DNA of 28,968 nucleotides from a virus. Position numbers and translations under genes: made by a program. The notes below the pieces were generated by a model, which was given only the letters and a program-made list of their open reading frames with translations, did no database searches and was not told the origin of the DNA. Positions 8,006-28,784 of this stretch are shown in pieces (within the stretch, counting starts at the first letter, position 1; every line of letters begins with the position of its first letter). The DNA lies in the IMG/VR virus record IMGVR_UViG_3300044678_000913, positions 1 to 28,968 of that record; one strand, given 5' to 3'.

Positions 8006-9259
8006 TCATTGCTCGTAAACTAGGCCGAATTCTTCGGCGAGGCGTCGTCGCACCATGCGACCCATCTCTTGCTCTTGCATGCTTGGATTGCCGGACTGTA
8101 TCTCGCTCTTAATCTGAGCCCCCCGGTCGTTCATAATCTTCGGCATCTGGTCTAACTGCACCTGACCAAGTGAGAACCCTTGACGCTTGATGTAAGAACG
8201 TCGAGCCGTTGCCATGCGAAGATCCTTGGTCACTGCGTCCATCTTTGCCTTGAACTCAGTCGGGGAATCGCCGTCCCACATTCCCGTGCCCGCAAACGGG
8301 ATCGCCTTCGTCAAGCGTTCTGCTTCTGCCTCAGTCAGTGCCGCGCCGGTCATTGCCTTGATGTACTGATTCAGCGCATTGGCAGATCGCCCACGGTAGC
8401 GCGTGAAGTCTTCCAGCAGCGCCTTGTCGTCTTTAGTGACCCCTAATCCCAACCGTTCCTTCATGCCAGTTTTGAGCGCATTCCAGCGCGTTCCTAGCGT
8501 CTGGAACTCCGGTCGATATTCCTGCTGGATCGCACTCATACCGGACATCATCTGCCCTGCGTCCAATAGGCCTTGATCGTTCGTATTCTGCGCGGCCTGC
8601 CCCGGCATCAAAGGAGAATTGATGTTGAGCGATGGCCCCTGCGCCGCCCCGGCTCTGTTGAGCCCCGCCTGCCGTTGATACAGTTCCTCGTTAACGCTGC
8701 CGTCTGCATTGAGCCATGCGGGACGTGACCCCGGCGCAGCAGTCTTCTCAGCCTGAAACACCGGCTGTACCTGCTGCGTGACAGGATCTCGCACGAATCC
8801 CGCCTGCTGCCCGCCGAGGTCGGTCTGGAAGAACTGCGGGCTAATTCCCGTCTTCGCCTCTATCGCCGCAGTCCGTTTCGGCCCCTCCGGCAGCGCGTTA
8901 ATCATCCGCAGATCGGACGGCATCTCGTAATTCTTCTCAAGCACTTTCGACAGCGATCCGGGTCCGCCCATCGTAAACAATGCGCGTACCTGATTCGCAG
9001 GCATCCCGAGCATCCCTTGGATCACGTCGTCAGGCTGCGACAGCAACCCCTGCATGCGCTCCTGCGCCTCGACTTGCTGTTGCGCTTGGCGCTGCCTCTC
9101 GGCCAATTGCGCCTGCATGGCGTTGCGCTGCATGTCCTGGGTTTGCATGTTGGACAGCATCCCCATCCCCTGCAACGCCTGCATGTTGCGGTTCTGCGAC
9201 GATTGCATCCCCTGGAGATACCCGGCATACCCCGGTCCGTACAGTTGCGAGAGATCCAT
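8006..9259 (-). CDS. Internal virion / DNA ejection protein (417 aa)
   Basis: The N-terminus has a short GYAGYLQGMQ segment and then a long glutamine/methionine/arginine-rich stretch (about 18-75) predicted as coiled coil, with many MQ and QRQAQ runs. The rest mixes proline-rich linkers and helical parts and ends in a basic helical tail. The stop is one base from the next start, so it forms a unit with the 678-residue protein. This is typical of ejection proteins in P22-like and related podoviruses. The specific counterpart (gp7, gp16 or gp20) cannot be assigned. Confidence 0.5.
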   Translation of the reverse strand: MDLSQLYGPGYAGYLQGMQSSQNRNMQALQGMGMLSNMQTQDMQRNAMQAQLAERQRQAQQQVEAQERMQGLLSQPDDVIQGMLGMPANQVRALFTMGGPGSLSKVLEKNYEMPSDLRMINALPEGPKRTAAIEAKTGISPQFFQTDLGGQQAGFVRDPVTQQVQPVFQAEKTAAPGSRPAWLNADGSVNEELYQRQAGLNRAGAAQGPSLNINSPLMPGQAAQNTNDQGLLDAGQMMSGMSAIQQEYRPEFQTLGTRWNALKTGMKERLGLGVTKDDKALLEDFTRYRGRSANALNQYIKAMTGAALTEAEAERLTKAIPFAGTGMWDGDSPTEFKAKMDAVTKDLRMATARRSYIKRQGFSLGQVQLDQMPKIMNDRGAQIKSEIQSGNPSMQEQEMGRMVRRRLAEEFGLVYEQ

Positions 9260-9268
9260 GTATCGCTC

Positions 9269-10687
9269 CTAAGGCAAGCCGAACTGCTGGCGGAACATCC
9301 GTTTCATCATATCGTCCATGCTGTTGTCGCTGGTCAGCCCGGAGATCGTGTTGCCCGCAATGGCATACGGTTGCCCCGACGTGCTGGCGATCTGCTGCCC
9401 GAGATTCGCCTGGATGCCCTGCCCCGAAAGCCCGAGCGATCCGAGCGAGTTGACAGTGTTGGTGTACCTGTCATAGAGCGCCCCGGTCGCCAATGACTGC
9501 GCGGTCGGAGACGTGCCAGGATTGCCGAACTTCGTCGACAGTGCCCGCATGGTTGCGTTGGCTGCGCCGGTCGCCTCCGGGCTGGTGTAGAACGAGTCGG
9601 GATTGTTTAGGTAGCCGACAGCTTTGTTCAAGAACGGCGCACGCTGGCCGGATAGTTGATTCTGCAGGTTCGTGAGCGCATCGGACTGCTGTTTGCTGCC
9701 GAGCAGACCAATCCCTGCGCCACCGAGTTGCCCGAGCATGCCAAGCATGTTCTGGTCAACGTCGAGGTTGAACTTGTCTTTCAGGAACTTCTGCAACGGG
9801 CTGGTCGGCGTGGTAGGCGTCGTGGGTGTCGTCGGCGTGGAACTGGTCGGCGGCATTCCAGGCGTAGACGGTAGGCCTGTTGCTGCCGGGATCGTCGACA
9901 GCATGCTGCCTGAGTTCGCTAGATCGACCATCCCCGGCACGATGTTGCCCGCCGCATCCAGCCCCAGGCTACCGAGCGCCCCCGTAGTACCTGCGCCGAG
10001 TCCAGCACCCGCAGAGCCCATCGCCCCGAGTGCGGCCATTCCTTCAGCCGTCAGACCGCCGACGCCCGTCAACCCAGCGACCGTAGGCATGCTGCCGCCC
10101 GAGTAGAGCAAGCCTGACTGCGCGACCGTGCTTGGCGTGATCGTGGGCGCGAAGGATGAACTGAACGTACCTGCACCGGCCGCTTCCGGGGCCGCAGCCG
10201 CAGCGCCCGCGCCCGCTGCCCCCAATGATGCCGCATACGGTCCTGCGCCGACTGCAACCAGCGGCAGCATCGATACAAGATCGGCGTTGTTCCAGAATCC
10301 GCTTGGATTGATGCCGTAAAAATCCTCGCCGCCCGTAGCCTGTGCCGAAAGTTCTGGCCGATATACGTACTGCCCATTTTCAAGCCGTACTGCTGATCGC
10401 GGGTCCGAAAGATACTGCTCAGGCGTTAGGTTTTGCGCACCGAGATAACCTCGATTGCTGCTTCCAGGGTCGCCAGTGCCACGGAGATTATTCATAAGCA
10501 GATTGAATTGCTCCGGCGAGAGCACCGAACCGGGGCGCAGGTTCCACTCGTTCATGACCCCGGCAGGCGAGTTCGTAGCGAACCGCTCGACAATCTGAGG
10601 ATCAATGTCGCCCCAACCATTGCGCATCATTTCTTGAATGCGAAGTTGGGTGCTTCTCTCCCGTTTGTCTTCCTGTCTCTCGCTCAT
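9269..10687 (-). CDS. Internal virion / DNA transfer protein (472 aa) with TPT repeat linker
   Basis: The N-terminal 130 residues are hydrophilic; residues about 135-255 are low-complexity glycine/alanine/serine, then a threonine/proline linker with repeated TPT (about 278-293). The C-terminal 170 residues contain a hydrophobic MLGQLGGAGIGLLGSKQQSD segment followed by a helical part with repeated small polar residues, a pattern I associate with P22 gp7-like DNA transfer proteins. It heads the three ejection-type genes and overlaps its upstream neighbour as ATGA. The assignment is by position, composition and partial resemblance. Confidence 0.5.
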   Translation of the reverse strand: MSERQEDKRERSTQLRIQEMMRNGWGDIDPQIVERFATNSPAGVMNEWNLRPGSVLSPEQFNLLMNNLRGTGDPGSSNRGYLGAQNLTPEQYLSDPRSAVRLENGQYVYRPELSAQATGGEDFYGINPSGFWNNADLVSMLPLVAVGAGPYAASLGAAGAGAAAAAPEAAGAGTFSSSFAPTITPSTVAQSGLLYSGGSMPTVAGLTGVGGLTAEGMAALGAMGSAGAGLGAGTTGALGSLGLDAAGNIVPGMVDLANSGSMLSTIPAATGLPSTPGMPPTSSTPTTPTTPTTPTSPLQKFLKDKFNLDVDQNMLGMLGQLGGAGIGLLGSKQQSDALTNLQNQLSGQRAPFLNKAVGYLNNPDSFYTSPEATGAANATMRALSTKFGNPGTSPTAQSLATGALYDRYTNTVNSLGSLGLSGQGIQANLGQQIASTSGQPYAIAGNTISGLTSDNSMDDMMKRMFRQQFGLP

Positions 10688-11079
10688 ATCTCATTACTCC
10701 CTGCGATCTTGATCGCATCGCCTGTTGCGCCCCATGTAGGCAGGTACACCCGCGACGTTGTTACGTTGATCGCGCACACGCCTATCGCTACGTTCGTGGC
10801 GTCGTTGTAGGCCACCGCTACGCCCGCCAATCCCTTCGCAGGCACCGGAAGCGGGAAATACGTAGTCCCTGCCGTGCTTGCCGTGCTCGTTCCAGCAACG
10901 ATACCTATCTGCCAATCCAACTTCCTGCCGTCAAAACGCATGCGCCCTGAGTACGTTGCCGTGCCTACCTCCGTCATTCCTGACGGCGCAGGCGTCCACA
11001 AGCGCCACGAATCCTGACCGATCAAGTTCTGATACGCAGAACTCGTCGTGTCAATGTTCGGGAGGCGCTCGTCCTTCAT
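10684..11079 (-). CDS. Hypothetical beta-rich structural protein (131 aa)
   Basis: A 131-residue protein overlapping the gp10-like gene stop by four bases (ATGA) and the next start likewise. It is rich in glycine, threonine and valine, with alternating residues suggesting beta strands. The pattern of WRLWTPAPSGMTEVGTATYSG near the N-terminus is similar in style to small fibre or appendage proteins in phages. No catalytic motif is visible. Probably a minor virion or tail appendage protein made with the gp10-like protein. Confidence 0.55.
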   Translation of the reverse strand: MKDERLPNIDTTSSAYQNLIGQDSWRLWTPAPSGMTEVGTATYSGRMRFDGRKLDWQIGIVAGTSTASTAGTTYFPLPVPAKGLAGVAVAYNDATNVAIGVCAINVTTSRVYLPTWGATGDAIKIAGSNEI

Positions 11080-12521
11080 ATCGCGCCCTCAGTGACTTCG
11101 AGTTCAATGGCTTCCAGCAATTGATCCCGACCCGTTGCAGCGGCGCTCAATCCAGTAATTCTGAATGCGCGACGTTTAAACAAACCAGCGCGGAGCAAGC
11201 GAGGGTCATTAGACGCCATATCGACCGTTCTCCCTGCGCTCCAAGTCTGCCCGTCATCGTCCGACCATGAGATCGTCAACGTACTTGTGGATGTCGCCTT
11301 GTCGCCAATCACCCGAAGAGAATTCAGCGTCTTGTACTTTCTGGAATCGAAATCCATCGGCTGAGTCTGGATCGTTCCCGATGCCGGCGCGTTGCCAAGG
11401 TTGCTCAATTGCTTAGTCGAATCCTGCCCGACATACACCGTGCCACCACCCGAAGCATCGCTTTGCCGAATGCCGTACTCAAGTGTCCACGGTTGCCATG
11501 CGCCTGTCGTCAAATCGTGCGCGTAGACATTCGTCGCGTTAGACGACGAACTCACCGCGATGTAGTACCGATTGTGATCGGCAATGATGTGGAGCCTAAG
11601 CCCCGCAGTATCGCCACCGGCCGCAATGATCTGCGCAAGAATCCATGTATCTACGGCTTGAGTAGAAATCTTCTTCGGATTCCCATCCGACAGAATATAG
11701 ACTCCAACGGTATGCAGATGCGAACCGACAAAGGCCAGTGTCTCCTCTACCGGAGCAATGCAATAACGGTTGACCGCGCCGATCTGCTTGGCCATCGACT
11801 GTACCCGCTGAAGCACTGCCCCTGCGGCGTTCCCGGCATTAATGAAAAACTCGATCGAGTATCGAGAAAATCCAACAATGAAATTACGATACCGAGCTAC
11901 GCCTACGCCTAGATCAGGGTATTCCTGAGCCGTGATCACCGCCGTCGAAGTCCAGTTCACAAGCGTGTTTACGTCTGAATGCCAAATCTGGCCGTTCGTA
12001 CACATCACGAACCCATAGCCGTCCATGTGCGCAAAGTTGCCGGTAAGCGTCAGTGCTGGCGTTTGCTTCGGCGGAAAGTCCGTATCCGTTATTTCAGTGA
12101 GCGATCCCGCGTCAACATAGTAGTAAGCAAGATTAGAGTCGGACACGAAAACAAGCGTCGGGACCGAGCTAATCATCGTCTCGGAGATATGGATGCAACG
12201 CCCGGTGATCGCCCCGAGCGAAGAATCGTTGTTGTAGATCGTAGAGTTCGTGCTACCGAACGCAGTGATCGTGGATGCGCTTTTGCCGCGCCAAATCTGG
12301 ATCGCTGTCCCGTGACCCGATGCGCCTGCTGGCGAAGCCGTCTCCGCAAACACTTTTCGCGGGCCGACCTTGACTAATGTCTTTCCAGAAAATGCGTTCT
12401 GCGTGACGTGAAAAACACAGTCCTCGAAATACTGATCTTTCTGACTGGACGAAAACAGGCCAGCATTGGTCCCGTCTCTGCTGACCAGTGATCCGACCAA
12501 AGGGATACGAACCTTCGCCAT
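11076..12521 (-). CDS. P22 gp10-like packaged DNA stabilisation / tail hub protein
   Basis: A 481-residue protein close to the length of P22 gp10. It starts MAKVRIPLVGS, then has a cysteine-containing segment near 30-50 and a long series of beta-strand repeats with patterns such as YRNFIVGFS, LAFVGSH and NRYYIAVSSS that suggest a propeller-like body; the C-terminus (about 385-470) is another beta domain with LTISWSDDDGQTW. In P22, gp10 plugs the portal/gp4 channel after packaging. The gp4-like adaptor gene lies upstream, separated by a glycosyltransferase and a small coiled-coil gene. Confidence 0.72.
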   Translation of the reverse strand: MAKVRIPLVGSLVSRDGTNAGLFSSSQKDQYFEDCVFHVTQNAFSGKTLVKVGPRKVFAETASPAGASGHGTAIQIWRGKSASTITAFGSTNSTIYNNDSSLGAITGRCIHISETMISSVPTLVFVSDSNLAYYYVDAGSLTEITDTDFPPKQTPALTLTGNFAHMDGYGFVMCTNGQIWHSDVNTLVNWTSTAVITAQEYPDLGVGVARYRNFIVGFSRYSIEFFINAGNAAGAVLQRVQSMAKQIGAVNRYCIAPVEETLAFVGSHLHTVGVYILSDGNPKKISTQAVDTWILAQIIAAGGDTAGLRLHIIADHNRYYIAVSSSSNATNVYAHDLTTGAWQPWTLEYGIRQSDASGGGTVYVGQDSTKQLSNLGNAPASGTIQTQPMDFDSRKYKTLNSLRVIGDKATSTSTLTISWSDDDGQTWSAGRTVDMASNDPRLLRAGLFKRRAFRITGLSAAATGRDQLLEAIELEVTEGAI

Positions 12522-12709
12522 TAGATCGTACCGGCTTCCGTCTTGAGGGTTGCAGTGCGCGTATCGCGCTCCGTACGCAACGTGGCAATATCCGCGTTGA
12601 TGACTACAATCCTTGCCTGTAGCGTGTTCTTCTCATCCTGCAACGCATCGATGCGGTCGTTCACATCCTTGAGCGCCGCAGCAGCAGCAATGACCGTGGC
12701 GTAGCTCAT
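12521..12709 (-). CDS. Small coiled-coil protein (62 aa)
   Basis: A 62-residue protein that is almost wholly helical. Residues about 12-50 (ALKDVNDRIDALQDEKNTLQ and on) follow a heptad-like pattern with leucine/isoleucine spacing, so it probably forms a coiled-coil oligomer. It overlaps the glycosyltransferase stop by four bases (ATGA) and shares its stop base with the gp10-like start. A structural or chaperone role for tail assembly is possible, but no family is recognised. Confidence 0.6.
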   Translation of the reverse strand: MSYATVIAAAAALKDVNDRIDALQDEKNTLQARIVVINADIATLRTERDTRTATLKTEAGTI

Positions 12710-13383
12710 CGCTTCTCGTCCACATCAATGGATCGGTGGAACTCTTGCCACCACTCCTGCGAATGGTCGCAATCTTCGTAAGAGGACACCGCGGGGATCG
12801 CAAGTGTGAAGTGCAGCAGCTTGGCTTCGTCGTTGTGATCGTACTCGTCGACCAGATGATTCCATTCCTTCGGCAATTCCTGAATCCGCTCATCCTTCAG
12901 CCACTGGAAGCGGTGCAGGAACTCGCTGGACTTCTCCGAGATGTAATCCGGCGTGAGCACATGGTTCGGATGGTTGCCGCAGTTCCACAGCATGACGCTC
13001 GACCAGTTCTTGCGCGGGTAGTTCTTGTTCGCCTGCCCGAAATACTTCACCGGGTACTTGGTCTGGTAGTCGTGCTTCACCACGGCCACATCGCACTCGT
13101 TGCGCATCAAGGCGAACAGTTCTGCCACGTCCGCCTTGAAGATCATGTCGCCATCGACGAACAACGCATGACCTTGAAACCCGCACAGGTACGGCACAAG
13201 AAAACGCGAGTGAATGAACTGATTCGACCCCTTGTGCGTCTCCTCGTAAAACGGCATCGTGTTCAGCGCCAACGGGTGAATACTTACCGGCACCGACGCA
13301 TGCCGAATGATGCTGTTCACGCAGACGTGAAAGGCGATTGCCTCACGAGCATCGTAACCAACGAAGATTTTTAGAGGATGCAT
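12706..13383 (-). CDS. Glycosyltransferase, GT-A fold with DxD motif
   Basis: A 225-residue protein with an N-terminal nucleotide-sugar binding start (KIFVGYDAREAIAFHVCVNSI, GT8-like) and the metal-binding DxD motif VDGDMIF (D77, D79). A region of conserved aromatic and histidine residues follows (YFGQANKNYPRKNW). It would transfer a sugar from a nucleotide donor, acting in the cytoplasm. It lies between adaptor and coiled-coil/gp10-like genes with one- and four-base overlaps, so it is expressed with virion proteins. Possible acceptors are a tail/capsid protein or host surface sugar; the sequence does not tell which. Confidence 0.75.
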   Translation of the reverse strand: MHPLKIFVGYDAREAIAFHVCVNSIIRHASVPVSIHPLALNTMPFYEETHKGSNQFIHSRFLVPYLCGFQGHALFVDGDMIFKADVAELFALMRNECDVAVVKHDYQTKYPVKYFGQANKNYPRKNWSSVMLWNCGNHPNHVLTPDYISEKSSEFLHRFQWLKDERIQELPKEWNHLVDEYDHNDEAKLLHFTLAIPAVSSYEDCDHSQEWWQEFHRSIDVDEKR

Positions 13384-14000
13384 TAGAACTCGACCTCGCT
13401 TCCCTCGTAGCCTTCAGTGTTAACTTCGTTCATGAGCGCATTGCGAATCGTCTGATACTTGGCCTCCCAAACCTGAAGCCTGGATTCCATGCCAATGAAC
13501 GGAATTGCCTCCGAGATCGCCGCCGACAAATACAAGTCGGGATGCACGCGGAACACTTCGTTAAACGTGAGCGTCGTGGTCAGCGTCATCCGCCGCCAGT
13601 ACACGCCCTTCAAGTTGTACGTCGTGCCGGTGTCCGGATACGGACCGAAGATGAAGTTGGTTCCCTCTCGCGCAACGTAGCCAGGACGCCCCGCAGCATC
13701 ACGGTGCGGGTATCGCTCGTAGATAAACCGCGCCGTGCGCTTCTGTAGAAACTTGGTCGGCTGCTCGTTGTTCAGGTAGGCGTACTTCAGGTCCACGAAG
13801 TCGGCCGGCAACGGGACCACGCCCGCACTCACCGTCGCGGAGATGTCAGCCTCCATCTCACGGCATCGAACCTCGCGCCCGATCCGCTGGTGCGCCATCA
13901 GGATCAGGTCGTCAATCGTCGTGCCGCTGAAGTCGCCAGAGGATGAATCGACCCAGGCGAAGATCGCTGTCTTGAGTTCGCTATACGTGCTAATAGCCAT
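13383..14000 (-). CDS. Head-tail adaptor, P22 gp4-like
   Basis: A 205-residue protein with an N-terminal helical bundle (starting MAISTYSELKTAIFAWVDSS) and segments such as DLILMAHQRIGREVRCREME and a later PADFVDLKYAYLNNE, typical of phage adaptor proteins that bind under the portal. The C-terminal region is helical and acidic (ending EGYEGSEVEF). In P22, gp4 extends the portal and is needed for tail attachment. The link with the portal and gp10-like genes supports the call. Its stop overlaps the glycosyltransferase start by one base (TAATG). Confidence 0.65.
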   Translation of the reverse strand: MAISTYSELKTAIFAWVDSSSGDFSGTTIDDLILMAHQRIGREVRCREMEADISATVSAGVVPLPADFVDLKYAYLNNEQPTKFLQKRTARFIYERYPHRDAAGRPGYVAREGTNFIFGPYPDTGTTYNLKGVYWRRMTLTTTLTFNEVFRVHPDLYLSAAISEAIPFIGMESRLQVWEAKYQTIRNALMNEVNTEGYEGSEVEF

Positions 14001-14003
14001 GCC

Positions 14004-14213
14004 TTACCCCTTGCACGCGCGGATGTGGAAGTGCGCCCCGCGAGGCTGGAGCGCTTTCCCACACGTCGGACAATTGACGCTGCTTACTTCTTTCCTTTGC
14101 CCGGAATCGGCATTGGCATCGGCTTCTTCGACTTTGAACGCACTTCGGATCACCTCCCTTCGTAGTTGCTCGGCTTCCTGCTCTCGGATGGCATAGATCT
14201 GTCGGCGTCTCAT
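14004..14213 (-). CDS. Small zinc-knuckle protein (69 aa)
   Basis: I start this at ATG 14213, which overlaps the methyltransferase stop as ATGA; the open frame extends upstream but those residues lie antisense-like within the methyltransferase and look non-coding. The N-terminal half is a charged helix (RREVIRSAFKVEE); the C-terminus has CPTCGKALQPRGAHFHIRAC, a single CxxC...H..H...C zinc-binding motif. It could bind nucleic acid or act as an assembly partner. It follows the methyltransferase closely, so a role in the modification cassette is possible, with no direct support. Confidence 0.5.
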   Translation of the reverse strand: MRRRQIYAIREQEAEQLRREVIRSAFKVEEADANADSGQRKEVSSVNCPTCGKALQPRGAHFHIRACKG

Positions 14214-14707
14214 CGCATCACCGCCATGAACTCCGGCCCGAGATCCTGAAATGCAATCAAATCCCACCGATTCATCAACTCCGGCAACCACCACTTCACC
14301 GGCCGAAGCAATATGTGAGCATTGCGCCCATCGGGCAGCGTTTTCTTCGCTGGCACGGTCGCCACGGTCAGCAGCGTCAACTTTCCCGTGCAACGCTTGA
14401 TGTCATCCAACACATCGTCGATGCAGCGCGGCTCGATATGCTCAAGCACGTCGGTGCAGCACACGAGATCGGCAGGCTTCGGCTCTGCGTCTAATCCCTC
14501 GATGCAAGGGTCGTAATTGTGGATCGGGAAGCCGAGCGCCTTTTCGAGCGTGCGCTTACCGCAGCCGTAGTCGAGCACCGATACGCAGCCGTGCTCTTGC
14601 ATCAGCATATGCACCACTTGCGCCCACTTCTTGCCGCTCGTCCCGTAATCCGCCCGGTCCTTATGCAGCTCGGCGTTCTGCGCTCGGTACTGCTGCGTGA
14701 TCAGCAA
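14210..14707 (-). CDS. Class I SAM-dependent methyltransferase
   Basis: A 165-residue methyltransferase. Motif I is VLDYGCG (44-50), a downstream acidic motif D66 and the motif TDVLEHIEP (85-93) fit class I enzymes that bind S-adenosylmethionine. It is short for the class, with a minimal C-terminal part, and no target-recognition domain is visible. The start is TTG 14707, preceded by GGAGA, and lies inside the 3' end of the TPR glycosyltransferase gene (47-base overlap). Close homologs I recall begin in the same way (LITQQYRAQN). It might methylate a sugar or a small molecule; the partner glycosyltransferase suggests glycan modification. Confidence 0.75.
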   Translation of the reverse strand: MLITQQYRAQNAELHKDRADYGTSGKKWAQVVHMLMQEHGCVSVLDYGCGKRTLEKALGFPIHNYDPCIEGLDAEPKPADLVCCTDVLEHIEPRCIDDVLDDIKRCTGKLTLLTVATVPAKKTLPDGRNAHILLRPVKWWLPELMNRWDLIAFQDLGPEFMAVMR

Positions 14708-16019
14708 TCGCTTTCTCCACTAGGTTGATCTGCTCGGCCCAGCCGTTCTTCGCGCGGCACAGTTGCACCGAGCGATACCACGGCATGTCGCCCGTGAGTC
14801 CATAGCGCCAGTGCGGCGTCGGCCCGATAATCGCATAAGTCTTCGCCCCGACAGCCCCGGCCACATGAACCGCCGTCTGCTGCACGGTCACGACGTAATC
14901 GACCGCCGCGAACAGCGCCGCCTGCGCTGCGAGGTCTTCGCCGACGCATAGGTTATCCAGCCGCACGAGTCCGGCGTCCTCGCGTGCCTTCTGGAGCATC
15001 GGATTCGTGTGCTCGTACTGTGCGGATACACAGGTGTATCGATTGCGAATCGGCTCGAACGAATCGAGATCGATTGACCGATCTTTGACCCGCGTCTGCT
15101 TCGTGCCGCCATGCCATGCGAGCGCTACCCAGGGACGCGGGCCGATAGCGGTGAGCCGCGCCTTGTAGTGCTCAACAAGCTCCGGGTCGGGCTTCAGGTA
15201 CGGTGTACCTGGGAACGCATCCGCCGAGCGCCGTAGACGCGCTGCAAGGCTCCCGATTGCGATCTTCGCGGAATAGTCTCCCGGCGTCTCAGTCGTAACG
15301 ATTGACACGCTCGGCCACGTCTTGCGAGCAATGCCTGCGACACGCTCGTTGAGTTCCAACGTCACGCGCTTGGCCAGTGGCAAGACTTCGTCTAGACAAG
15401 ACAGGAACATGATCTCATCACCCACGCCCTGCTCGCCGTGGATGTAAAGATGGTCGGTCGGCGTGAAGTCCCACATAGGCGCGTCCACAGTGGTGCGCGA
15501 GTGCCAGCCTTCCAACTGCTGGCGAAACTCATACAGCGGCCAGCCGTTCGCCCAATCCTTCTTAGTCAGCAACGCGAGCGACTTCGACCACCGAGCCCCG
15601 ACGCTTTCCGGGTCGCACTTGAGCGAACGGTCGAGCCAGTGAATCGCCTTGTCAGGTTGCGCTCTGTCGCTGTAGAGCGTGGCCATATTGCAGCAGACTT
15701 CGGCGGTATCACCTTGGATTTTGAGCGCACGCTCCCAGGCGTTTACCGCTTCCGTGTATCGATCTTCCTTGCGGAACGCGATCCCTAGGTTGCACCACGC
15801 GGCACCGTTCTTCGGATGCCGATCAAGCAAATTCGTCAGCAGGTTAATGGCGAGTCCGCTGTATTCCTGCCGCAAATACAGGTCCGACAACAGGTACAGC
15901 ACGCCCTCATCGAATGGCTTCAGATTCAGGACGGCGTTATAGAGATGTGAGGCGCGGCCAAAGTCGCCCGCCTTGTGATGGATGAGTGCTTGGTCAATCG
16001 TCTGGTCGATGACGTTCAT
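14661..16019 (-). CDS. TPR-domain glycosyltransferase
   Basis: A 452-residue protein. Residues about 5-150 form tetratricopeptide repeats (for example AAWCNLGIAFRKEDRYTEAV and ATLYSDRAQPDKAIHWLD). Residues about 190-440 are a GT-B type glycosyltransferase half, starting with HGEQGVGDEIMF and continuing to a C-terminal nucleotide-sugar region (TVQQTAVHVAGAVGAKTYAI and later HWRYG), a pattern seen in bacterial TPR-linked heptosyltransferase or family 9-like proteins. It would add sugar to a protein or a cell-surface glycan. ATG 16019 follows directly after a strong hairpin and a T-rich tract, so translation and transcription entry may be limited there. Confidence 0.72.
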   Translation of the reverse strand: MNVIDQTIDQALIHHKAGDFGRASHLYNAVLNLKPFDEGVLYLLSDLYLRQEYSGLAINLLTNLLDRHPKNGAAWCNLGIAFRKEDRYTEAVNAWERALKIQGDTAEVCCNMATLYSDRAQPDKAIHWLDRSLKCDPESVGARWSKSLALLTKKDWANGWPLYEFRQQLEGWHSRTTVDAPMWDFTPTDHLYIHGEQGVGDEIMFLSCLDEVLPLAKRVTLELNERVAGIARKTWPSVSIVTTETPGDYSAKIAIGSLAARLRRSADAFPGTPYLKPDPELVEHYKARLTAIGPRPWVALAWHGGTKQTRVKDRSIDLDSFEPIRNRYTCVSAQYEHTNPMLQKAREDAGLVRLDNLCVGEDLAAQAALFAAVDYVVTVQQTAVHVAGAVGAKTYAIIGPTPHWRYGLTGDMPWYRSVQLCRAKNGWAEQINLVEKAIADHAAVPSAERRAA

Positions 16020-16046
16020 AAAGAAACGGGGGCACGAGGCCCCCGT
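16019..16046 (-). terminator. Intrinsic terminator between capsid block and modification cassette
   Basis: On the minus strand an 8-base perfect stem (ACGGGGGC / GCCCCCGT, plus-strand arms 16026-16033 and 16039-16046) with a 5-base loop is followed by TTCTTTATG, giving a U-rich tail. It lies just below the decoration-like gene stop and ends at the start of the TPR glycosyltransferase gene. It probably trims transcripts of the scaffold-capsid block, so capsid mRNA should exceed the mRNA of the cassette and tail genes. Partial readthrough must occur unless the downstream genes have their own promoter. Confidence 0.7.
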
Positions 16047-16051
16047 GTCCG

Positions 16052-16525
16052 TTACTCGCTGCGCCCGTCAGCGACGTATCGCAGATACCCCTGGAAGCTA
16101 AACGACGTGGTTCCAGAGACACCCACCGTACAGTTCAGCGCCAACGTGGCGTATTGAATTGCACGGTCATCCGAAATGCTCAACTTTCCGCCCGGATTGA
16201 CCAGCGTATAGCTTTGCACCGTGGATGCGTTCGCGGTGATCGATCCTTGAGACGCCCGCAGGGTGTTAAGCACCGTGTAGGTGCCCCCTGCATCTTGCCC
16301 GAGTACCAACATCGTGAACGTCTCGGCTGCGTTCTTCTGCACGCCAAACGTGATCGCCCCATCGGTGATCACAGCACCATTCGGAATGCGACCAAGCAAG
16401 TACACATCGGAAATGCTTCCGAACTTGTTTGCGCCCGAGTTGATGTCGAAGGTAATCGTGCTCGGACCCGCATGTATCTTTTGCGGACCGAGAGCGGCGG
16501 TTGCGGCAGTAATGGTGATAGGCAT
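16052..16525 (-). CDS. Probable head decoration or minor structural protein (157 aa)
   Basis: A 157-residue beta-rich protein directly after the major capsid gene, with AGGAGA ahead of ATG 16525. It starts MPITITAATAALGPQKIHAGPS and has repeated threonine/serine/glycine strands, then a C-terminal aromatic FSFQGYLRYVADG. Position and composition fit a head decoration or stabilising protein in N4 gp56-type capsid clusters. It is followed by the intrinsic terminator. No family signature is visible. Confidence 0.55.
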   Translation of the reverse strand: MPITITAATAALGPQKIHAGPSTITFDINSGANKFGSISDVYLLGRIPNGAVITDGAITFGVQKNAAETFTMLVLGQDAGGTYTVLNTLRASQGSITANASTVQSYTLVNPGGKLSISDDRAIQYATLALNCTVGVSGTTSFSFQGYLRYVADGRSE

Positions 16526-16537
16526 GTCTCTATCTCC

Positions 16538-17614
16538 TTATGGGGCCGGAGCGAAACCGGACATGACAATCGTGGCGTAATCGGACGAGTTGAATTTCGT
16601 CTTCTTAACGCCAAAGATCATCCCGGCCGACACGCCCAGTTGGTTGCCGTAGTCGAACATTTCTTCTTCCCACGACATCTTCGTCGCAGAACCGTTTTGT
16701 CCGACCGCCACTGCAAGCGCCTGCGCGCCGCAGAACACGCCACGACGGTACGAGGTCGAGGACGATACGGTGCTCTTGACCACGGGCAGGTACGGCCACT
16801 CGTAGACGATCACGCCGTTGTAGATGAACTCGCCGCCCGTGAGGATCGGGTTGTCGCTGATCTTCCCGCCCGTCAGTTGCGCTTTCTGCACGTCGAAGAA
16901 GTTACCCGCCGTGCTGGCGTCCTGCCGAAGCTGGTTGATTTGGTACGGGTGCAGGAAGCACACGTAGAGCGATTTGCCGTCGACCCGAATCGGACGAATG
17001 CGAGGCGTCTGCGTCTTTGCAATCGCAGCAGCCTTGTCCAAGTCGGACAACTTGATCGCATGCGTGGTCGTTGCCGACAGCGAGCCTTCGGCATCGTGCC
17101 CACCGCCAACCAGAATCCGCTTGGTACCGGATACCGTGGACGGCTCCAGCGCCGCGTTGTTGCCGGTGTAGCGCGTGTCGCTCTGGTCCGCATAGCCCGC
17201 GAGTTGATTGGCAATGCTGGTTTCGAGACGCTCAAACCACCAATCTTCGGCGGCGCTACGCAGTTCTTCGCGGACGCTGAACGGTACGCGCTGCTCGCTC
17301 ATCCTGCCGCCCGTGCGGAACGCATGGCGCAGTTGATTGACAAGAAGTGCGTCGTTGTAGGTCAGCAGGGCTTCTTCATTTCCCTCCAGGGTTGCGTCAC
17401 CCTGAATGCCCGCGCCGACCGGCAATCCACGCAGGCCGATGGTGATCTGGTCACCGGGGCCTTTGCTGGTTTCTTCCTTGATCTGAAACAGGCTGTTGGA
17501 ACCCTTGCCGATGAAGCGACCGTAGTAGCCTTTGCCAACTACGTCTTCATACAGCTTGCGGGACCACAGCTTGACGGCGAGTGGGTGACCCACTCCGAAG
17601 TCAGTCGTTGCCAT
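16538..17614 (-). CDS. Major capsid protein, N4 gp56-like (DUF4043-type)
   Basis: A 358-residue capsid protein. The N-terminus reads TDFGVGHPLAVKLWSRKLYED, then a glycine-rich loop (QIKEETSKGPGDQITIGLRG) and the middle motif LHPYQINQLRQD near 220-235, which are features of the N4 gp56-type major capsid family, followed by a C-terminal domain with VYEWPYLPVV and EEEMFDYGNQLG. These assemble the icosahedral shell in an HK97-like fold. It follows a scaffolding protein gene, and AAGGA lies eight bases before ATG 17614. This capsid type is combined here with a P22-like portal and tail genes. Confidence 0.8.
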   Translation of the reverse strand: MATTDFGVGHPLAVKLWSRKLYEDVVGKGYYGRFIGKGSNSLFQIKEETSKGPGDQITIGLRGLPVGAGIQGDATLEGNEEALLTYNDALLVNQLRHAFRTGGRMSEQRVPFSVREELRSAAEDWWFERLETSIANQLAGYADQSDTRYTGNNAALEPSTVSGTKRILVGGGHDAEGSLSATTTHAIKLSDLDKAAAIAKTQTPRIRPIRVDGKSLYVCFLHPYQINQLRQDASTAGNFFDVQKAQLTGGKISDNPILTGGEFIYNGVIVYEWPYLPVVKSTVSSSTSYRRGVFCGAQALAVAVGQNGSATKMSWEEEMFDYGNQLGVSAGMIFGVKKTKFNSSDYATIVMSGFAPAP

Positions 17615-17695
17615 GAGAATGTCCTTAGTGAATGGAGAATCGGGTTGACGCGATCACGCTTCGTCTTGCGATTCGTCCACTCACGCGGGACGCAA

Positions 17696-17773
17696 CGAAT
17701 CCGGTTTAGAGCCTCGGGCGGCTGTCCGGGGTTAACGCCTCCGGGGCGAATCCGAGTTAGAGCCTCGGCGGCT
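17696..17773 (-). repeat. Two imperfect direct repeats (about 27 bases) between scaffold and capsid genes
   Basis: Two copies of a GC-rich element, at 17696-17723 and 17747-17773, start 51 bases apart and share the minus-strand core CCGAGGCTCTAA. They sit in the 164-base gap between scaffold stop and capsid start, which is otherwise non-coding. The lower copy carries a small inverted arrangement (CCGAG-7-CTCGG), so each may form a short stem-loop on the mRNA. They may protect or process capsid mRNA or bind a regulator; nothing in the sequence decides. No good sigma-70 promoter is seen here. Confidence 0.6.
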
Positions 17774-17778
17774 TATGC

Positions 17779-18636
17779 TCAACTAAGCTGAGAAACGTTT
17801 TCTTCCCAGTTCGTGTTGAACTTCTTGAACTCTGCGTCCGACATATTTGCTGCGTACTCCCAAGTCATTGCCGGAACCGGACGCCCTGGTACTTGTGACA
17901 ACGACTTGCTCGATTTTATCCCATCTGCCACGTTTTGTAGCTTTTGTGTCGCATTTTCCGCAGTGGGTTTTGCTTTGGGCTTAATGCCCTTGGCAATCGC
18001 GGTCTGATAGACCATCTGCGCCGGGTTGACGCCCATCTGAGCGGCAGTCAACGCGAGCAGTTGCTCCTCTTGCTGCATCTTGGCGACGATCTGCTGCGGC
18101 GTCATTCCTGCGTCGGCCAATTCTGTCTGCCGGGCCTCGATGAAGGCCGAGTAGGTCTCCATGAAGTCGGGCTGCGCCTGCAAGAACGCTGCCGCCTGCG
18201 TCTGATACCAGTTGGCGAACTGCGCCTGTCGCGCGCTGTCCTCGCTCTGCCGCTTGATCGCCGCGAGTTCTTCCTTAGCCGTCGTCACCTCGTGTCGCAA
18301 GTTCTCGGCCGGGTTTTCCTCGAACGCCGGAACTTGCGCCTGCGCCTGCGGATTCAACCGGGATTCGATCTGCGCGCGCCAATGTGCGAACTCCTGCCGC
18401 TCCTGATTGAGCCGAGCAAGCTGAGACTTCAGTTCCTTCGCCTGCGCCCGAGCCTCATGCAGCGCCTCCAGCGGCACCAGTTTAGGCTTGGCCGGTTCTG
18501 CTGCCTCCGTCGCCTCCGGTTGCGTCTCTGCCACTTCCGTCGCCTCGGCGACCGGCGTCTCGGCCTCCGGCGCTTCCGGTGCCGTCTCGCCCTGCGTCTC
18601 GAAGAATGCTTGCTCTTGCTGCGTCAATTCGCTCAT
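17779..18636 (-). CDS. Putative scaffolding protein (285 aa)
   Basis: A 285-residue, strongly charged protein just upstream of the capsid gene, the standard place for a scaffold. The first 50 residues are acidic and repetitive (glutamate/alanine/threonine), then a long helical, probably coiled-coil region (about 55-150) rich in glutamine, glutamate and alanine. A helical segment follows (DAGMTPQQIVAKMQQEEQL), and the basic C-terminus (KPKAKPTAEN, KSSKSL) could bind coat protein. Composition, position and lack of enzyme motifs support scaffold rather than protease. Confidence 0.7.
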   Translation of the reverse strand: MSELTQQEQAFFETQGETAPEAPEAETPVAEATEVAETQPEATEAAEPAKPKLVPLEALHEARAQAKELKSQLARLNQERQEFAHWRAQIESRLNPQAQAQVPAFEENPAENLRHEVTTAKEELAAIKRQSEDSARQAQFANWYQTQAAAFLQAQPDFMETYSAFIEARQTELADAGMTPQQIVAKMQQEEQLLALTAAQMGVNPAQMVYQTAIAKGIKPKAKPTAENATQKLQNVADGIKSSKSLSQVPGRPVPAMTWEYAANMSDAEFKKFNTNWEENVSQLS

Positions 18637-18643
18637 GTGCCCT

Positions 18644-19009
18644 CTAAAGGATAAGAACCAAGGTTTCTTCCTCGTCCATCTCTGCGATGCGCCTTTTGGC
18701 CAGCGCCACCAACTGCCTTAGCTGTCCTGCCTGCGCCTGCGTTGCATCTGCCGCCGCTTGCAACAACATCCGCTGCTCCACCAGCAAATCCGCAATCTCG
18801 CCGGCCTGCGCTAGCCGGTTGATGTAATCGCGTTCTTCTTTGACGGATGCGGCATCGAATACCCGCTTCCCATCAACCAGTCGCCACAGTGGCGCCCGGC
18901 CTCGCCTGCCACGGCTTCCAACAAGAGCCGCAGGAGGCGCAGCACCTTCAGCCGGCCCCCAATATCGAGCGCCGAAGTATCGAGCGCCAAAGAAACGATG
19001 CCCAAACAC
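18644..19009 (-). CDS. Hypothetical protein with repeated FGAR motif (121 aa)
   Basis: A 121-residue protein starting at GTG 19009, one base after the previous stop. The N-terminus repeats FGARYFGARYWG, an aromatic/arginine pattern I have seen in unannotated phage structural neighbours. Residues about 55-115 are helical and alanine/glutamine/leucine-rich, perhaps coiled coil, and the C-terminus is acidic. It is coupled to the 223-residue protein, and lies just above the scaffold gene. Function is unknown. Confidence 0.5.
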   Translation of the reverse strand: MFGHRFFGARYFGARYWGPAEGAAPPAALVGSRGRRGRAPLWRLVDGKRVFDAASVKEERDYINRLAQAGEIADLLVEQRMLLQAAADATQAQAGQLRQLVALAKRRIAEMDEEETLVLIL

Positions 19010-19010
19010 G

Positions 19011-19682
19011 TCACGTCAGGTCCAACGTCACCGCAGTCCTGTTCCCGTTTGCGTCCACCGTTGCCGTGATGCGATCTTTGGTATCCGCAGTGTCCCGATA
19101 TACCGCTGTCGTCGTATCCAGCCCGGACGCCTTGCCAAGCATTGCCGCCGCATATCCGCGCAGATAATCGCGGATGGAATAAACGCCCTCGACAATCGCG
19201 TCAAGAATGGCGCTAATGCCGGTACTGGATAACTCGTATCCGGTCTTGTCGTTGTTCGTGCCTACCGTTACGGCTGCTGTGACGCTCCCAACCGATCCGG
19301 CGACACTACCGGCCACATTGCCGCCCACGCTTCCAGTCACGCTACCGACTGCGCCAACAACGCTTGCCACGCCGGCATTTAGGTCTGTGTCCAGCACCTC
19401 AAACTCGCCAATCCCATCACGCCCTGTGATCGCGCCAACCGTGGCAACGACGTAGACGCTGTAACGCTGCCCCGCGCCGAACCCGTTACCCGCCGTCGCA
19501 TCAATCTGCACCATGTATAGACCGGTCGTGATGTTGGTCACGGTCGGCGCATAGCCAAGTGCGACGCCATCCTCGACCACGGTAACTGTAGGCGTGCTGT
19601 CTGCGTTCGTTGCTGCTCCAGTTGATACGCTGGACGTACCAAAGTGCAGAAACACGCTATCTCCGAGCGCGACGGGATTCAT
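19011..19682 (-). CDS. Hypothetical structural protein with glycine/serine/valine repeats (223 aa)
   Basis: The N-terminal half is a beta domain starting MNPVALGDSVFLHFGTSS and resembling immunoglobulin-like phage appendage parts. Residues about 105-142 hold tandem GSV/GNVAGSV repeats, which may be a flexible or fibrous stalk. After that is a helical segment (ISAILDAIVEGVYSIRDYLR) and a C-terminal strand pair (RITATVDANGNRTAVTLD). Likely a head or tail fibre-like virion protein. It overlaps its upstream neighbour by four bases. Confidence 0.5.
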   Translation of the reverse strand: MNPVALGDSVFLHFGTSSVSTGAATNADSTPTVTVVEDGVALGYAPTVTNITTGLYMVQIDATAGNGFGAGQRYSVYVVATVGAITGRDGIGEFEVLDTDLNAGVASVVGAVGSVTGSVGGNVAGSVAGSVGSVTAAVTVGTNNDKTGYELSSTGISAILDAIVEGVYSIRDYLRGYAAAMLGKASGLDTTTAVYRDTADTKDRITATVDANGNRTAVTLDLT

Positions 19683-19948
19683 AGTTGGATGCCCCGCACA
19701 ACTGGCGAACCGATGGGGCGGAATACTGCACTACCACCGCCACCGGACATTGTCCCGGTAAGGTAGCCCTGCTTCTCATACTGACCCGGCCCGTAGACCG
19801 TGCCAGAGCGCACATCGGCCACGTTCGGGAACCTGTGGTGCGAGTGATACGGCGCTGGACTTTCACGCAGCACAACCGTCGTCGGCGTGGCGTGTGTGGT
19901 CCGCAGCACGAGTTTCGAGAAGTTCGGGACGTTAAAATATGGCATCAC
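19679..19948 (-). CDS. Hypothetical protein (89 aa)
   Basis: An 89-residue protein, basic in the first half and glycine-rich near the C-terminus (SGGGGSAVFRPIGSPVV). A histidine-containing segment (APYHSHHRFPN) stands out. Overlaps of four bases on both sides (ATGA type) tie it to the 180-residue and 223-residue genes, which supports it as a true gene. Its function is not recognisable; position suggests a minor head or connector component. Confidence 0.5.
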   Translation of the reverse strand: MMPYFNVPNFSKLVLRTTHATPTTVVLRESPAPYHSHHRFPNVADVRSGTVYGPGQYEKQGYLTGTMSGGGGSAVFRPIGSPVVRGIQL

Positions 19949-20487
19949 GTACCATCGATGTTTGCCGGGACCAGCGTATTAACCGTCGTGCCTGCGCGGT
20001 CAGGTGAGCCCGTGAGATACGCAACCACGTAGTGCGCGACTCCGGGGAAATTTGTTGCAAGGTCGTAGCTGCCATCGGTGAGCGATTGGACCTCATAGCC
20101 GCCAAACGCATCATCCGACGTGCGAAACGCTTGCAGCACAGCCCCAGACAACGGCGCATCGTTGGTATCAACGCATAGCCCCTTGATGAACTTCAGCGAC
20201 TGCTGCCCCGGACCGTCGCACGAGTAAGGTTCGTAGAGATCGGCTTGCGCCAAGTCACGGCATGTGACGCCATCACTCCCAGACGGCGCACCAATGCCAA
20301 CACGACACCCAAACGACCACAGGGACCGCCACCGCTGCGGATCTTTCCATGACTTAGGTGCGCGTGCCTGCCATTGCCACTTTGGCTCGGCCCAGCGTTC
20401 GTCGAACGCTGGCTGCAACGTGCCCGGCTGCGCTGAGAATCCACCGCCCGTGGCCCCTGCCGTACCGAATTGCAGTCGCGCGCCCAT
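19945..20487 (-). CDS. Protein with carboxypeptidase-regulatory-like (Ig) domain (180 aa)
   Basis: A 180-residue protein. The N-terminal 85 residues are tryptophan-rich and basic (KWQWQARAPKSWKDPQRW). From about 100 to 170 the sequence reads IKGLCVDTNDAPLSGAVLQA and continues with DGSYDL, the strand-turn pattern of a carboxypeptidase-regulatory-like beta sandwich common on phage surfaces. Such domains often bind glycans or decorate capsids. It overlaps neighbours by a few bases. The role is inferred from the fold and position between portal and scaffold genes. Confidence 0.55.
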   Translation of the reverse strand: MGARLQFGTAGATGGGFSAQPGTLQPAFDERWAEPKWQWQARAPKSWKDPQRWRSLWSFGCRVGIGAPSGSDGVTCRDLAQADLYEPYSCDGPGQQSLKFIKGLCVDTNDAPLSGAVLQAFRTSDDAFGGYEVQSLTDGSYDLATNFPGVAHYVVAYLTGSPDRAGTTVNTLVPANIDGT

Positions 20488-20774
20488 TACATCGCATTCG
20501 CGAGCTTGTGCCGCGCATCGAGCAATCGCTGCTCTTGCGGCGTGTTCACAAGCGGCGTGTCGTAGACCGGAACGATCACGCCCTTGCCTGCCTGCAATTG
20601 GGCCCGTTGATGGAAATTGCTCACCACGTCACGCGCCGTATCAAGCATGAACGTCGCAAAGGCATGATCCGTAATCGCGCCCTCGACCTTGCAATTCCCC
20701 GAGCGAGACATCGTGATAACGATTTGAGCAACCGCCGTCTCGCCGTGAACGTCATCAAGCGTCTGTCGCTTCAC
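20487..20774 (-). CDS. Hypothetical protein (95 aa)
   Basis: A 95-residue protein with an N-terminal half that looks like a small alpha/beta unit (QIVITMSRSGNCKVEGAITD) and a C-terminal helical part (TPQEQRLLDARHKLANAM). The stop touches the next start, and the start overlaps the upstream gene by four bases. This tight packing argues that it is translated. No family is recognised. Confidence 0.5.
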   Translation of the reverse strand: MKRQTLDDVHGETAVAQIVITMSRSGNCKVEGAITDHAFATFMLDTARDVVSNFHQRAQLQAGKGVIVPVYDTPLVNTPQEQRLLDARHKLANAM

Positions 20775-21202
20775 TCGTCCACCACCGCATGGATATCGAC
20801 CACCGCCGAATTAGCCGTGATGTTCCATGCCACCATCGCCTGACCACCGGCAGGCAGCACAATGCCACGAGGGAACGTAAACACAGCCGCCGCGCCCACC
20901 AGTGCCGCCAGCGAGAAGCGACGGAAGAACTGCGTCGGCACAGTCGGCGCCGTACCAAACGCCACCGCGCCTTGCGTCAGTCCGGTCGGGCGGTCGAAGT
21001 CCTCGGCCAGAAACGCCACACCGCCTGTAAGCGTCGGCGTGTTAGCCGACCGTCCAAAGCCCACCACACACGCCGTCGCCGCACCGTTAAAATAACCCCA
21101 CTCCATCAAGGCAGGCTCGTTCGTGGCGGGCGCAAGAAACGCATGCGACGCCGCTGCAAGAGTCGTTACGGTCGTACGCTGAGAAAGCGAATAAATCGCC
21201 AT
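20771..21202 (-). CDS. Hypothetical beta-rich virion protein (143 aa)
   Basis: A 143-residue protein immediately after the portal gene. It is rich in alanine, glycine, phenylalanine and threonine, with a likely beta sandwich in the second half (FTFPRGIVLPAGGQAMVAWN). That pattern is similar to small surface-exposed phage proteins. It overlaps the next gene as ATGA. No enzyme motif is seen. Likely a minor structural protein; the sequence does not give a specific role. Confidence 0.5.
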   Translation of the reverse strand: MAIYSLSQRTTVTTLAAASHAFLAPATNEPALMEWGYFNGAATACVVGFGRSANTPTLTGGVAFLAEDFDRPTGLTQGAVAFGTAPTVPTQFFRRFSLAALVGAAAVFTFPRGIVLPAGGQAMVAWNITANSAVVDIHAVVDE

Positions 21203-21228
21203 GCCTTAGGCTCCAGTCTCGTTATTTG

Positions 21229-23472: not shown

Positions 23473-24830
23473 TACGCCACCAGCGTCGGCTGGGTGAGTT
23501 GCGAATACCACTGGCTAGGAGAAACTACGTCAACCAGCCCTTCCAGTTCCCGCGCACGAAGCCACGCCGCGAAGTCTAGGAACGCCGCCGTGTACGTGGT
23601 CAGCCCGTTCGCGTATTTGGCAGGCTCGTTCACACTAGGCCGAAGGCTCGCTGATCCACCGGGCGCGAAGGTGTGCCAGTACATATGCAGGTCGCCGCCA
23701 TACGTGATAGCTCGTGTCACCACGCTTTTAAGCACCGAAGATTCAGCATTGTCGATACCTATCGAGCCAACGCGCAAAAGCTCCTGCGCTGTGGGCGCTT
23801 GCACGGAACGGTCAAATATCGTGCGTTCAGAGATACCCGCACGCCCCAATTGAATGCCAACAGCCTGCGCGGCCTCCAACAGAGTCGAGTTGTAGGCGTT
23901 GTTGTTCCAAACCCAAATCTTATTCCCACGATTTAGGCCGTAACCTGCAAGCGTCTCCCGCGTCTCTGACATAGCATCGATGGCTTGCGAAAGCGTAAGA
24001 CCAGCGGTCGCCATGTTCCGGTCGGTAACATCATTGCAAACCGCCTCGCAGCCCTCTGCCTCAAGCTCTTGGAGCACCGACACAGGCCCGTTACCTGTGT
24101 TGCCGATTTCGTCCAGCGGGATCGTAACGCCCCATTTCCAGCCGTAGCCACCCTGGCCGATGGTTGGTCGAATAGCCGTGTGCGCGGCATCGTAATCCGC
24201 TCCGGGATTGCCGCCTTGCCAGTTGTCGAAGTACAGCACCACTTTTGGACGCATCCGGCGCATGCCCCATAGCGCCTTCAGGTAGACACTGCGCCCGTTC
24301 GTGTGCCAGTTGGAAAACGTGATGCGGAAATTGCGCAACAGCGTGGCCTGTGCTCCAAGTGCGCCACCCGAAGTTGCCCATCCAGACGGAGCGTTGAACG
24401 GATATCCCCCAACATACGGGCCGAACATCGCATTAGTTTGGTCGTGACGAAACACAACGAAATGACGTCCTCGCGTATTTGTGTTGGTTGAGTTCGTCGT
24501 GTGCGCGATGTTCTTGTCTACCGTCCACGCATCATCCTCGACGCAGTGCATAGTCATGCCGCAGTTCGTGTCGTAGGTATCAACGTAGTATTCCAGGCCG
24601 AGCGCCTCGTACGCACGCCAATCTCTATTGCCGTTGGTCCCGGACAGGTACGCGCCACTGCCAGAAGGCGTGATCTTCAGAGTCGTCACATCGAACGTCG
24701 TTGTATCGACTACGCGCGTGGCGAGGTTGGTCGAACCGCTGACGCCTTGCGCAAGATCCACCGGAAAGTCGATGAGCTTGACCGCCGACAGCCCGCCTAC
24801 CTTGTCGGTAAAGGGCGCGAACGTCGTCAT
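23472..24830 (-). CDS. Virion protein with polysaccharide deacetylase-like domain (452 aa)
   Basis: A 452-residue protein. Residues about 1-200 are beta-rich with aromatic pairs (for example RAYEALGLEYYVDTY, RHFVVFRH), like a carbohydrate-binding sandwich. From about 215 the sequence follows a NodB/TIM-type deacetylase order: KVVLYFDNWQGG (candidate metal aspartate D222 region), a KWGVTIPLDEIG strand, the helical TLSQAIDAMSETRETLAGYG, a KIWVWNNNAYN strand, and a late GDLHMYWHTF strand with histidines. It may remove acetyl groups from surface polysaccharide at adsorption. TAATG overlaps couple it to both neighbours. The fold call is from motif order only. Confidence 0.45.
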   Translation of the reverse strand: MTTFAPFTDKVGGLSAVKLIDFPVDLAQGVSGSTNLATRVVDTTTFDVTTLKITPSGSGAYLSGTNGNRDWRAYEALGLEYYVDTYDTNCGMTMHCVEDDAWTVDKNIAHTTNSTNTNTRGRHFVVFRHDQTNAMFGPYVGGYPFNAPSGWATSGGALGAQATLLRNFRITFSNWHTNGRSVYLKALWGMRRMRPKVVLYFDNWQGGNPGADYDAAHTAIRPTIGQGGYGWKWGVTIPLDEIGNTGNGPVSVLQELEAEGCEAVCNDVTDRNMATAGLTLSQAIDAMSETRETLAGYGLNRGNKIWVWNNNAYNSTLLEAAQAVGIQLGRAGISERTIFDRSVQAPTAQELLRVGSIGIDNAESSVLKSVVTRAITYGGDLHMYWHTFAPGGSASLRPSVNEPAKYANGLTTYTAAFLDFAAWLRARELEGLVDVVSPSQWYSQLTQPTLVA

Positions 24831-25255: not shown

Positions 25256-25264
25256 TCCGATCTC

Positions 25265-28606: not shown

Positions 28607-28784
28607 GCGTATCCCTCAAGCATTCAACCGCCCAACGCTCGCCGCCTGCGGCCAAGTTGAGTAGCGTTTCAGCCGCTTGCCGCAGTCGCACGCCGTCGTC
28701 CTGAACGAGTGCGCGGCGCACTGTGTGCTCGAAAAGTCGCCGTTTTGCGGCATTTTCGCTGCCTTTTGGCGCACCACCCGGCAC
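28449..28784 (-). CDS. terS: Terminase small subunit
   Basis: A 111-residue protein that recognises packaging DNA and recruits the large subunit. The N-terminus MPGGAPKGSENAAKRRLFEH is a pattern common to small terminase-like proteins of this type, followed by a helical middle (LRQAAETLLNLAAGGERWAV) and ECLRDTLDGKPKQAID, which usually precedes TerL. GTG 28784 has AGGAG seven bases upstream. The reading frame overlaps the 5' end of terL by up to 158 bases, depending on the terL start. It is the first gene of the visible virion cluster on the minus strand. Confidence 0.75.
   Translation of the reverse strand: MPGGAPKGSENAAKRRLFEHTVRRALVQDDGVRLRQAAETLLNLAAGGERWAVECLRDTLDGKPKQAIDIDVTSRSVVDLDDASLAGLVAANRSSGTVSAEDGATEPAGLH

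Follow-up and report, generated by a model that had tools for sequence, protein, structure and literature searches.

A putative glycosyltransferase-methyltransferase cassette behind the capsid cement gene of uncultured podoviruses

Few phages have been documented to carry glycans on their virions. The closest known case is that of mycobacteriophages (Che8 and others), whose own glycosyltransferases have been proposed to glycosylate capsid or tail proteins (Freeman et al. 2023, as cited in PMC11256854 and PMC12619734); siphovirus glycans have been reported on capsid and tail-tube subunits (PMC12619734). The locus described here has in common with them phage-encoded glycosyltransferases that may act on virion proteins. 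Unlike the siphovirus mycobacteriophages, it belongs to a podovirus, in which a cement gene and a conserved terminator precede a block of a TPR glycosyltransferase (TPR-GT), a methyltransferase (MT), a GT8-like transferase (GT8) and a zinc-finger-like protein. The gene preceding the block encodes a protein that shares its predicted fold with the capsid cement protein of Ralstonia phage GP4. Cyanophage Pam1 shares both this cement fold and the annotated gene order MCP (major capsid protein), cement, adaptor, but there cement is followed directly by the adaptor. Phage T7 has a partial terminator directly behind its capsid gene, which resembles the arrangement found here, but T7 is not known to have glycosylation genes at that position. 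While phage virion glycosylation is known as such, the enzyme block behind a cement gene and a terminator is apparently undescribed: no description of it was found in literature searches or in tblastn searches of 50,697 phage records with three TPR-GTs as queries.

The window, i.e. the whole stretch of DNA analysed, is IMG/VR virus record IMGVR_UViG_3300044678_000913 (28,968 bases). Its gene content and order, which are observed directly, place the virion genes on the minus strand as follows: terminase large subunit (TerL), portal (P22_portal), MCP (PF13252), a 157-aa gene, a hairpin (16046-16026), TPR-GT, MT, a 69-aa zinc-finger-like protein, an SU10-type adaptor, GT8, a 62-aa protein and a head-closure protein. 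The features relevant to the analysis are:

16538..17614, minus strand: major capsid protein, context (PF13252, 5.4e-62)
16052..16525, minus strand: cement (capsid decoration) protein homologue by predicted fold, 157 aa, the favoured acceptor
16026..16046, minus strand: terminator-like hairpin and tail TTCTTTAT between cement and TPR-GT (hairpin scan, conserved position)
14661..16019, minus strand: TPR glycosyltransferase, 452 aa, with a TPR arm and a GT-B half, GT9-like (Pfam, predicted fold)
14210..14707, minus strand: Class I SAM methyltransferase, 165 aa (Methyltransf_23 and conserved motifs)
14004..14213, minus strand: 69-aa protein with an MRRR start and a C-terminal C2HC zinc-finger-like motif (similar ORFs in cassette relatives)
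13383..14000, minus strand: SU10-type adaptor, context, the far boundary of the capsid-adaptor interval (PF24175, 7.9e-25)
12706..13383, minus strand: GT8-like glycosyltransferase, 225 aa (PF01501, DxD motif, co-occurrence with the cassette)

An earlier, sequence-only reading of this DNA had described TPR-GT, MT and the zinc protein as linked by overlaps, and its coordinates are right: the overlap is 47 nt between TPR-GT and MT and 4 nt between MT and the zinc protein. The three genes start with ATG, TTG and ATG, respectively, and the adaptor starts at 14000, 3 nt past the zinc protein. A 129-aa ORF (14004-14393) was rejected as the zinc protein, being a 5' over-extension of the 69-aa ORF.

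We propose, with a probability of about 55%, that the cassette is a phage-encoded module for glycosylation and methylation of the virion, with the cement protein as the main acceptor. As to catalysis, sugar identity and acceptor, we infer the following scheme. TPR-GT would use its TPR arm to recognise a protein on the virion surface and would attach the first sugar to it, GT8 would extend this sugar or add a second one, and MT would cap the glycan (or methylate the protein). As the likeliest acceptor, the cement protein of the preceding gene would display a methylated glycan on the outside of the capsid. Located between cement and TPR-GT, the hairpin would leave the products of the shell genes abundant and those of the enzyme, adaptor and tail genes scarcer.

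The sequence-only reading had suggested a comparison of relatives for the presence or absence of the cassette. The capsid search of viral contigs yielded 221 relatives, of which the best 80 were taken, together with 11 from bacterial or archaeal genomes and two from annotated phages. From the window and 98 MCP loci, 61 deduplicated rows were scored, 41 with TPR-GT and 20 without it; repeat fetches (L082-L084, L086, L087), remote loci (L099, L100), loci with an unreadable cassette state, short MCPs and MCPs whose last 200 residues duplicated those of another were left out of the 61-row trees. Profile mapping revealed two layouts, namely MCP, cement-like gene, TPR-GT, MT, GT8, (zinc ORF), adaptor, head closure, and MCP, cement-like gene, adaptor, head closure. 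MT and GT8 were each found in 31 of the 33 TPR-GT loci with the adaptor in view and in none of the 20 loci without TPR-GT; a small C2HC ORF precedes the adaptor in 17/33 and 0/20, respectively. Two of the counted presences, the GT8 of L015 and the MT of L090, lie outside the capsid-adaptor interval, both upstream of MCP, and the sequence of L006 stops too early to show whether GT8 is present. GT8 is located behind the adaptor, between it and the head-closure gene, in the window, and also behind the adaptor in L004, L007, L009 and L013, and before the adaptor in the other cassette loci. The pattern over the 61 rows is directly observed: the enzyme set is inherited nearly all-or-none, as a block between the capsid and adaptor genes. 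The earlier placement of the cassette in this interval is borne out by its presence or absence as a block, while the gene set then proposed was incomplete, as it left out GT8 and the cement gene. The three-gene set (TPR-GT, MT, zinc protein) was rejected as the unit, since GT8 co-occurs with it (31/33 vs 0/20), and so was a recent insertion special to the window phage, since the cassette is present with capsids of ~50% identity.

In the annotated isolates KLEP18-1, Mae-JY35, RHph_Y1_10 and Pam1 no glycosyltransferase is annotated between MCP and connector genes. Among 60 listed of the 66 annotated records with a related MCP, only MW202512 (uncultured, Manatee Spring) was also matched by the TPR-GT queries. 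In the tblastn searches with three TPR-GTs (50,697 records) it was the only annotated phage record with a close full-length match (at least 80% of the query, 32-43% identity); two records of S-SRM01 also matched at least 80% of the query, at 24.5% identity, and the other matches covered less of it.

The close kin of the window phage are mosaics, and the exchange takes in head closure, i.e. extends beyond the cassette. Compared with the window, L004 has a nearly identical MCP (99%) and adaptor (94%), with a more divergent cement protein (62%), TPR-GT (77%), MT (52%), GT8 (78%) and head closure (39%); L007 shows 84% identity in MCP and 77% in the adaptor vs 94% in cement, 88% in TPR-GT, 95% in GT8 and 98% in head closure. 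About 600 extra nt lie between MT and the zinc protein in L004 (13394-14029). In L009, MCP, TPR-GT, GT8 and head closure are each broken into at least two frames, which looks like sequencing indels or decay. Annotated endonuclease genes were found in the capsid-to-adaptor interval of relatives with and without the cassette (L088, 13187-13663; L202, 7588-8070), hence this interval may often receive insertions. One cassette-free capsid relative (L092, 3951-5009) comes from a contig that had been assigned to the MAG of an archaeon (Candidatus Nitrosotalea), where a binning error is likely. The context of L173 was dropped, the locus being only 4.2 kb long.

The product of the gene before the hairpin was assigned by its predicted structure. 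The AF2 model of 16052-16525 (pLDDT 76) matched best the GP4 chain 8h89_J (Z 12.9, rmsd 3.0, 137 residues), followed by Pam1 (7eel_H, Z 10.5), KHP40 (7dou, Z 9.8) and KHP30 (Z 9.3); these top four matches are all phage capsid or cement chains, at only 10-16% sequence identity, and the next row has Z 8.7. By its predicted fold, 16052-16525 is therefore a homologue of capsid cement proteins. The cement tree has one clade (support 100/100) made up of 16 rows, none of which has the cassette; the other 45 rows include every one of the 41 cassettes and the last four of the 20 cassette-free rows (L076, L079, L089, L092). In the MCP tree the cassette label changes six times, two of the changes being forced by well-supported branches. 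L081 illustrates the difference: its MCP adjoins that of the cassette-free L070, and its cement protein adjoins that of the cassette-bearing L071. This association of the cassette with cement subtype is observed in the trees, and is suggestive of the cassette tracking the cement subtype. A strict phylogenetic test of the coupling offered only two independent pairs and was not significant, and adjacency alone could link the cement and cassette genes. Two sequence features of the cement proteins were discarded. The T.T motif at the N-terminus was rejected as a cassette-specific acceptor motif, since the cassette-free L031, L036, L056, L063 and L070 share it, and the serine content (0.099 in the 41 cassette rows vs 0.052 in the 20 others) was set aside as a clade difference.

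The same enzymes might instead glycosylate a different virion protein, such as MCP, the adaptor or a tail/needle protein, which we regard as possible, if unlikely. The position of GT8 in the window, flanked by the adaptor and head-closure genes, would fit such an acceptor; however, over the same 42 rows the cassette state requires the fewest changes on the cement tree (4, vs 5 for MCP, 7 for the adaptor and 8 for head closure), with small differences between quick trees. The second point in favour of another acceptor comes from a different capsid lineage. An alignment search with TPR-GT returned at least 596 confirmed relatives, of which the best 80 were used, giving 70 new loci (L101-L170) that partly repeat contigs of the first set. 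Among these best 80, adaptor or head-closure genes lie downstream of TPR-GT in 41 of the 43 loci with more than 5 kb of downstream sequence, and in the same 43 loci GT8 follows in 35 and MT in 26. An MCP of the PF13252 type is absent upstream in 18 TPR-GT loci with more than 1.5 kb of upstream sequence; five capsids from loci without this MCP were tested, and all proved to be SU10_MCP. In the loci with other capsids MT is found in 6/17 and GT8 in 11/17, and in one exception (L137) TPR-GT lies ahead of MCP. No cement homologue was found before TPR-GT in the SU10-type loci, hence the acceptor there must be another protein, which lends some weight to the alternative. The enzymes thus keep to the junction of shell and connector genes in two capsid families, which argues for a role of the cassette in the virion.

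The predicted enzymes agree with the module proposed above. Pfam supports the TPR in TPR-GT and gives for its C-terminus a weak match to GT9 (PF01075, 21.0 bits, under the cut-off of 22), which was seen at E up to 0.01 in 3 of 17 relatives; the catalytic model of GT41 (OGT) had no match to the window TPR-GT among the 17 Pfam families listed at E up to 0.01. The structural model (pLDDT 90.6) consists of TPR helices followed by a GT-B half, and its residues 184-442 align as a unit with the GT9 structure 3tov (Z 15.8, rmsd 3.2, 242 aligned), which identifies the predicted fold of this half as GT-B of the GT9 type. Over its whole chain the model resembles OGT only loosely (5djs, Z 18.1, rmsd 9.4). 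The TPR arm joined to a GT-B half is shared with the protein-glycosylating OGT/SPINDLY-type GT41 enzymes, and we count this likeness in favour of a protein-glycosylation module. GT8 scores above the curated cut-off of PF01501 (26.8 bits vs 24.3), which also matches 12 of 15 relatives at E up to 0.01, and MT above that of PF13489 (Methyltransf_23; 35.4 bits vs 27). The putative active-site residues are observed directly: the TPR-GT motifs, with D201 and H385 as putative active-site residues, are invariant among the aligned relatives, the DxD metal-binding motif of GT8 (D77, D79) in 15/15 and the MT motifs in 16/16 aligned sequences. As judged from the alignments, conservation of these motifs across capsids of ~50% identity indicates selection for activity. 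Neither Pfam nor PHROG gave a match for the zinc protein (14004-14213). Bacteria often encode full-length homologues of TPR-GT (in a sample of 200 genomes of one phylum, 59 match at E up to 1e-40), therefore the phages probably acquired it from their hosts. Flagellin near the bacterial homologues was dropped as a clue to function, as it occurs in 55/57 of the genomes and there is no background rate for the phylum.

The enzyme families also bear on two other targets. The sequence-only reading had left the choice between modification of a virion protein and of host surface sugars, and of these the virion protein is the best reading. Modification of the host's surface sugars during late infection or lysogeny, e.g. 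against superinfection, would be compatible with the families GT8 and GT9, some members of which synthesise surface polysaccharides (WbbM matches GT8 weakly), and with the tyrosine recombinase of the window phage, which may be temperate. We nevertheless consider it improbable, since the cassette lies inside the virion operon in two capsid lineages and is associated with the cement subtype, and since the TPR arm is like that of protein glycosyltransferases. The transferases could also glycosylate modified bases of the phage genome, i.e. take part in DNA or nucleotide hypermodification, as glycosyltransferases of phages often target DNA (PMC12619734). To this we give very little credence: no base-modifying neighbour was found among the genes scanned, the cassette sits with virion genes, and the TPR arm is of the kind that binds proteins.

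The virion module, as proposed, would be expressed behind a transcriptional step-down. The earlier reading placed a strong intrinsic terminator directly before the set, and the hairpin is indeed there: the stem (16046-16026, 8 pairs, 7 of them G-C, tail TTCTTTAT) is at the top of the scan list, although the scan of the whole window is no richer in terminators than shuffled sequences (20 found vs a mean of 17.8). A terminator-like site lies within ~100 nt of the cement stop codon in 28/41 cassette rows (shuffle mean 0.7, maximum 3), vs 3/20 cassette-free rows (0.1 expected). Elsewhere in the cassette rows such sites are found after MCP in 0/41, TPR-GT in 0/36, MT in 0/33, GT8 in 3/32 and the adaptor in 1/30. 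Among the SU10-type loci, 9/15 have the site immediately behind MCP (0.05 expected) and 0/15 behind the next gene. The terminator-like site is thus conserved together with the cassette, as directly observed; the count of 29/43 from the TPR-GT search is not independent of 28/41. The site is missing in 13/41 cassette rows, including the close kin L004, L009 and L013. G+C at the junction is higher in the cassette-free loci (0.63 vs 0.52), hence T-runs are rarer there.

The hairpin may be mainly an element of RNA processing, stability or translation rather than a terminator, which we find rather unlikely. It lies nearly on the start codon of TPR-GT, and the ATG falls within its tail in the window, L006, L007 and L009; strong hairpins, with or without a T-run, follow cement in 11/20 cassette-free rows as well as in 27/41 cassette rows, and the former mostly lack the T-run. 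However, it is the T-run that recurs behind the hairpin in the 28 cassette rows, and in the SU10-type loci the T-run hairpin lies at the end of the MCP gene, well away from TPR-GT. As to terminator strength, which is likewise inferred, all later virion genes lie behind the hairpin and no sigma-70-like promoter was found on the minus strand in 9000-28968, therefore a terminator must be leaky or overridden. To keep the catalytic products low, as suggested earlier, cannot be its only role, since the adaptor and the later connector and injection genes also lie behind it. More likely it separates the high-copy shell genes from everything low-copy.

A more far-reaching version of the virion module can be put forward tentatively, the chances being somewhat against it: a widespread glyco-coat, in which a complete cytoplasmic pathway would build a methylated multi-sugar glycan on cement, be inherited or exchanged with the cement subtype, have been gained in at least two capsid lineages, and have its dosage held down by a leaky, conserved terminator, the hairpin of which lies nearly on the first enzyme's start codon and might also affect translation. 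If true, glycosylation of the virion would be commonplace in a large group of uncultured podoviruses, as a modular trait whose enzymes are defined, for which there is a candidate acceptor and for which cassette-free relatives provide natural controls. The purpose of capsid glycans (particle stability, surface adhesion, escape from grazing) would become directly testable, and the small TPR-GT/GT8/MT set could be used in studies of protein glycosylation.

A few further observations concern the window. In the window, L006, L007 and L009 the hairpin ends so near to the ATG of TPR-GT that there is no space for an ordinary Shine-Dalgarno site. The 452-aa gene between portal and terminase (23472-24830, minus strand) has no Pfam or PHROG match, and a gene near the end of the virion operon (3647-4732, minus strand) has a weak match to PF18760 (ADP-ribosyltransferase of polyvalent proteins; 25.7 bits vs a cut-off of 31.2). 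The gene of the terminase large subunit (25265-28606, minus strand, 1113 aa) apparently contains two inteins, as Pfam reports two stretches of PF14890 (Intein_splicing, 1.2e-31) between the Terminase_6N and Terminase_6C matches.
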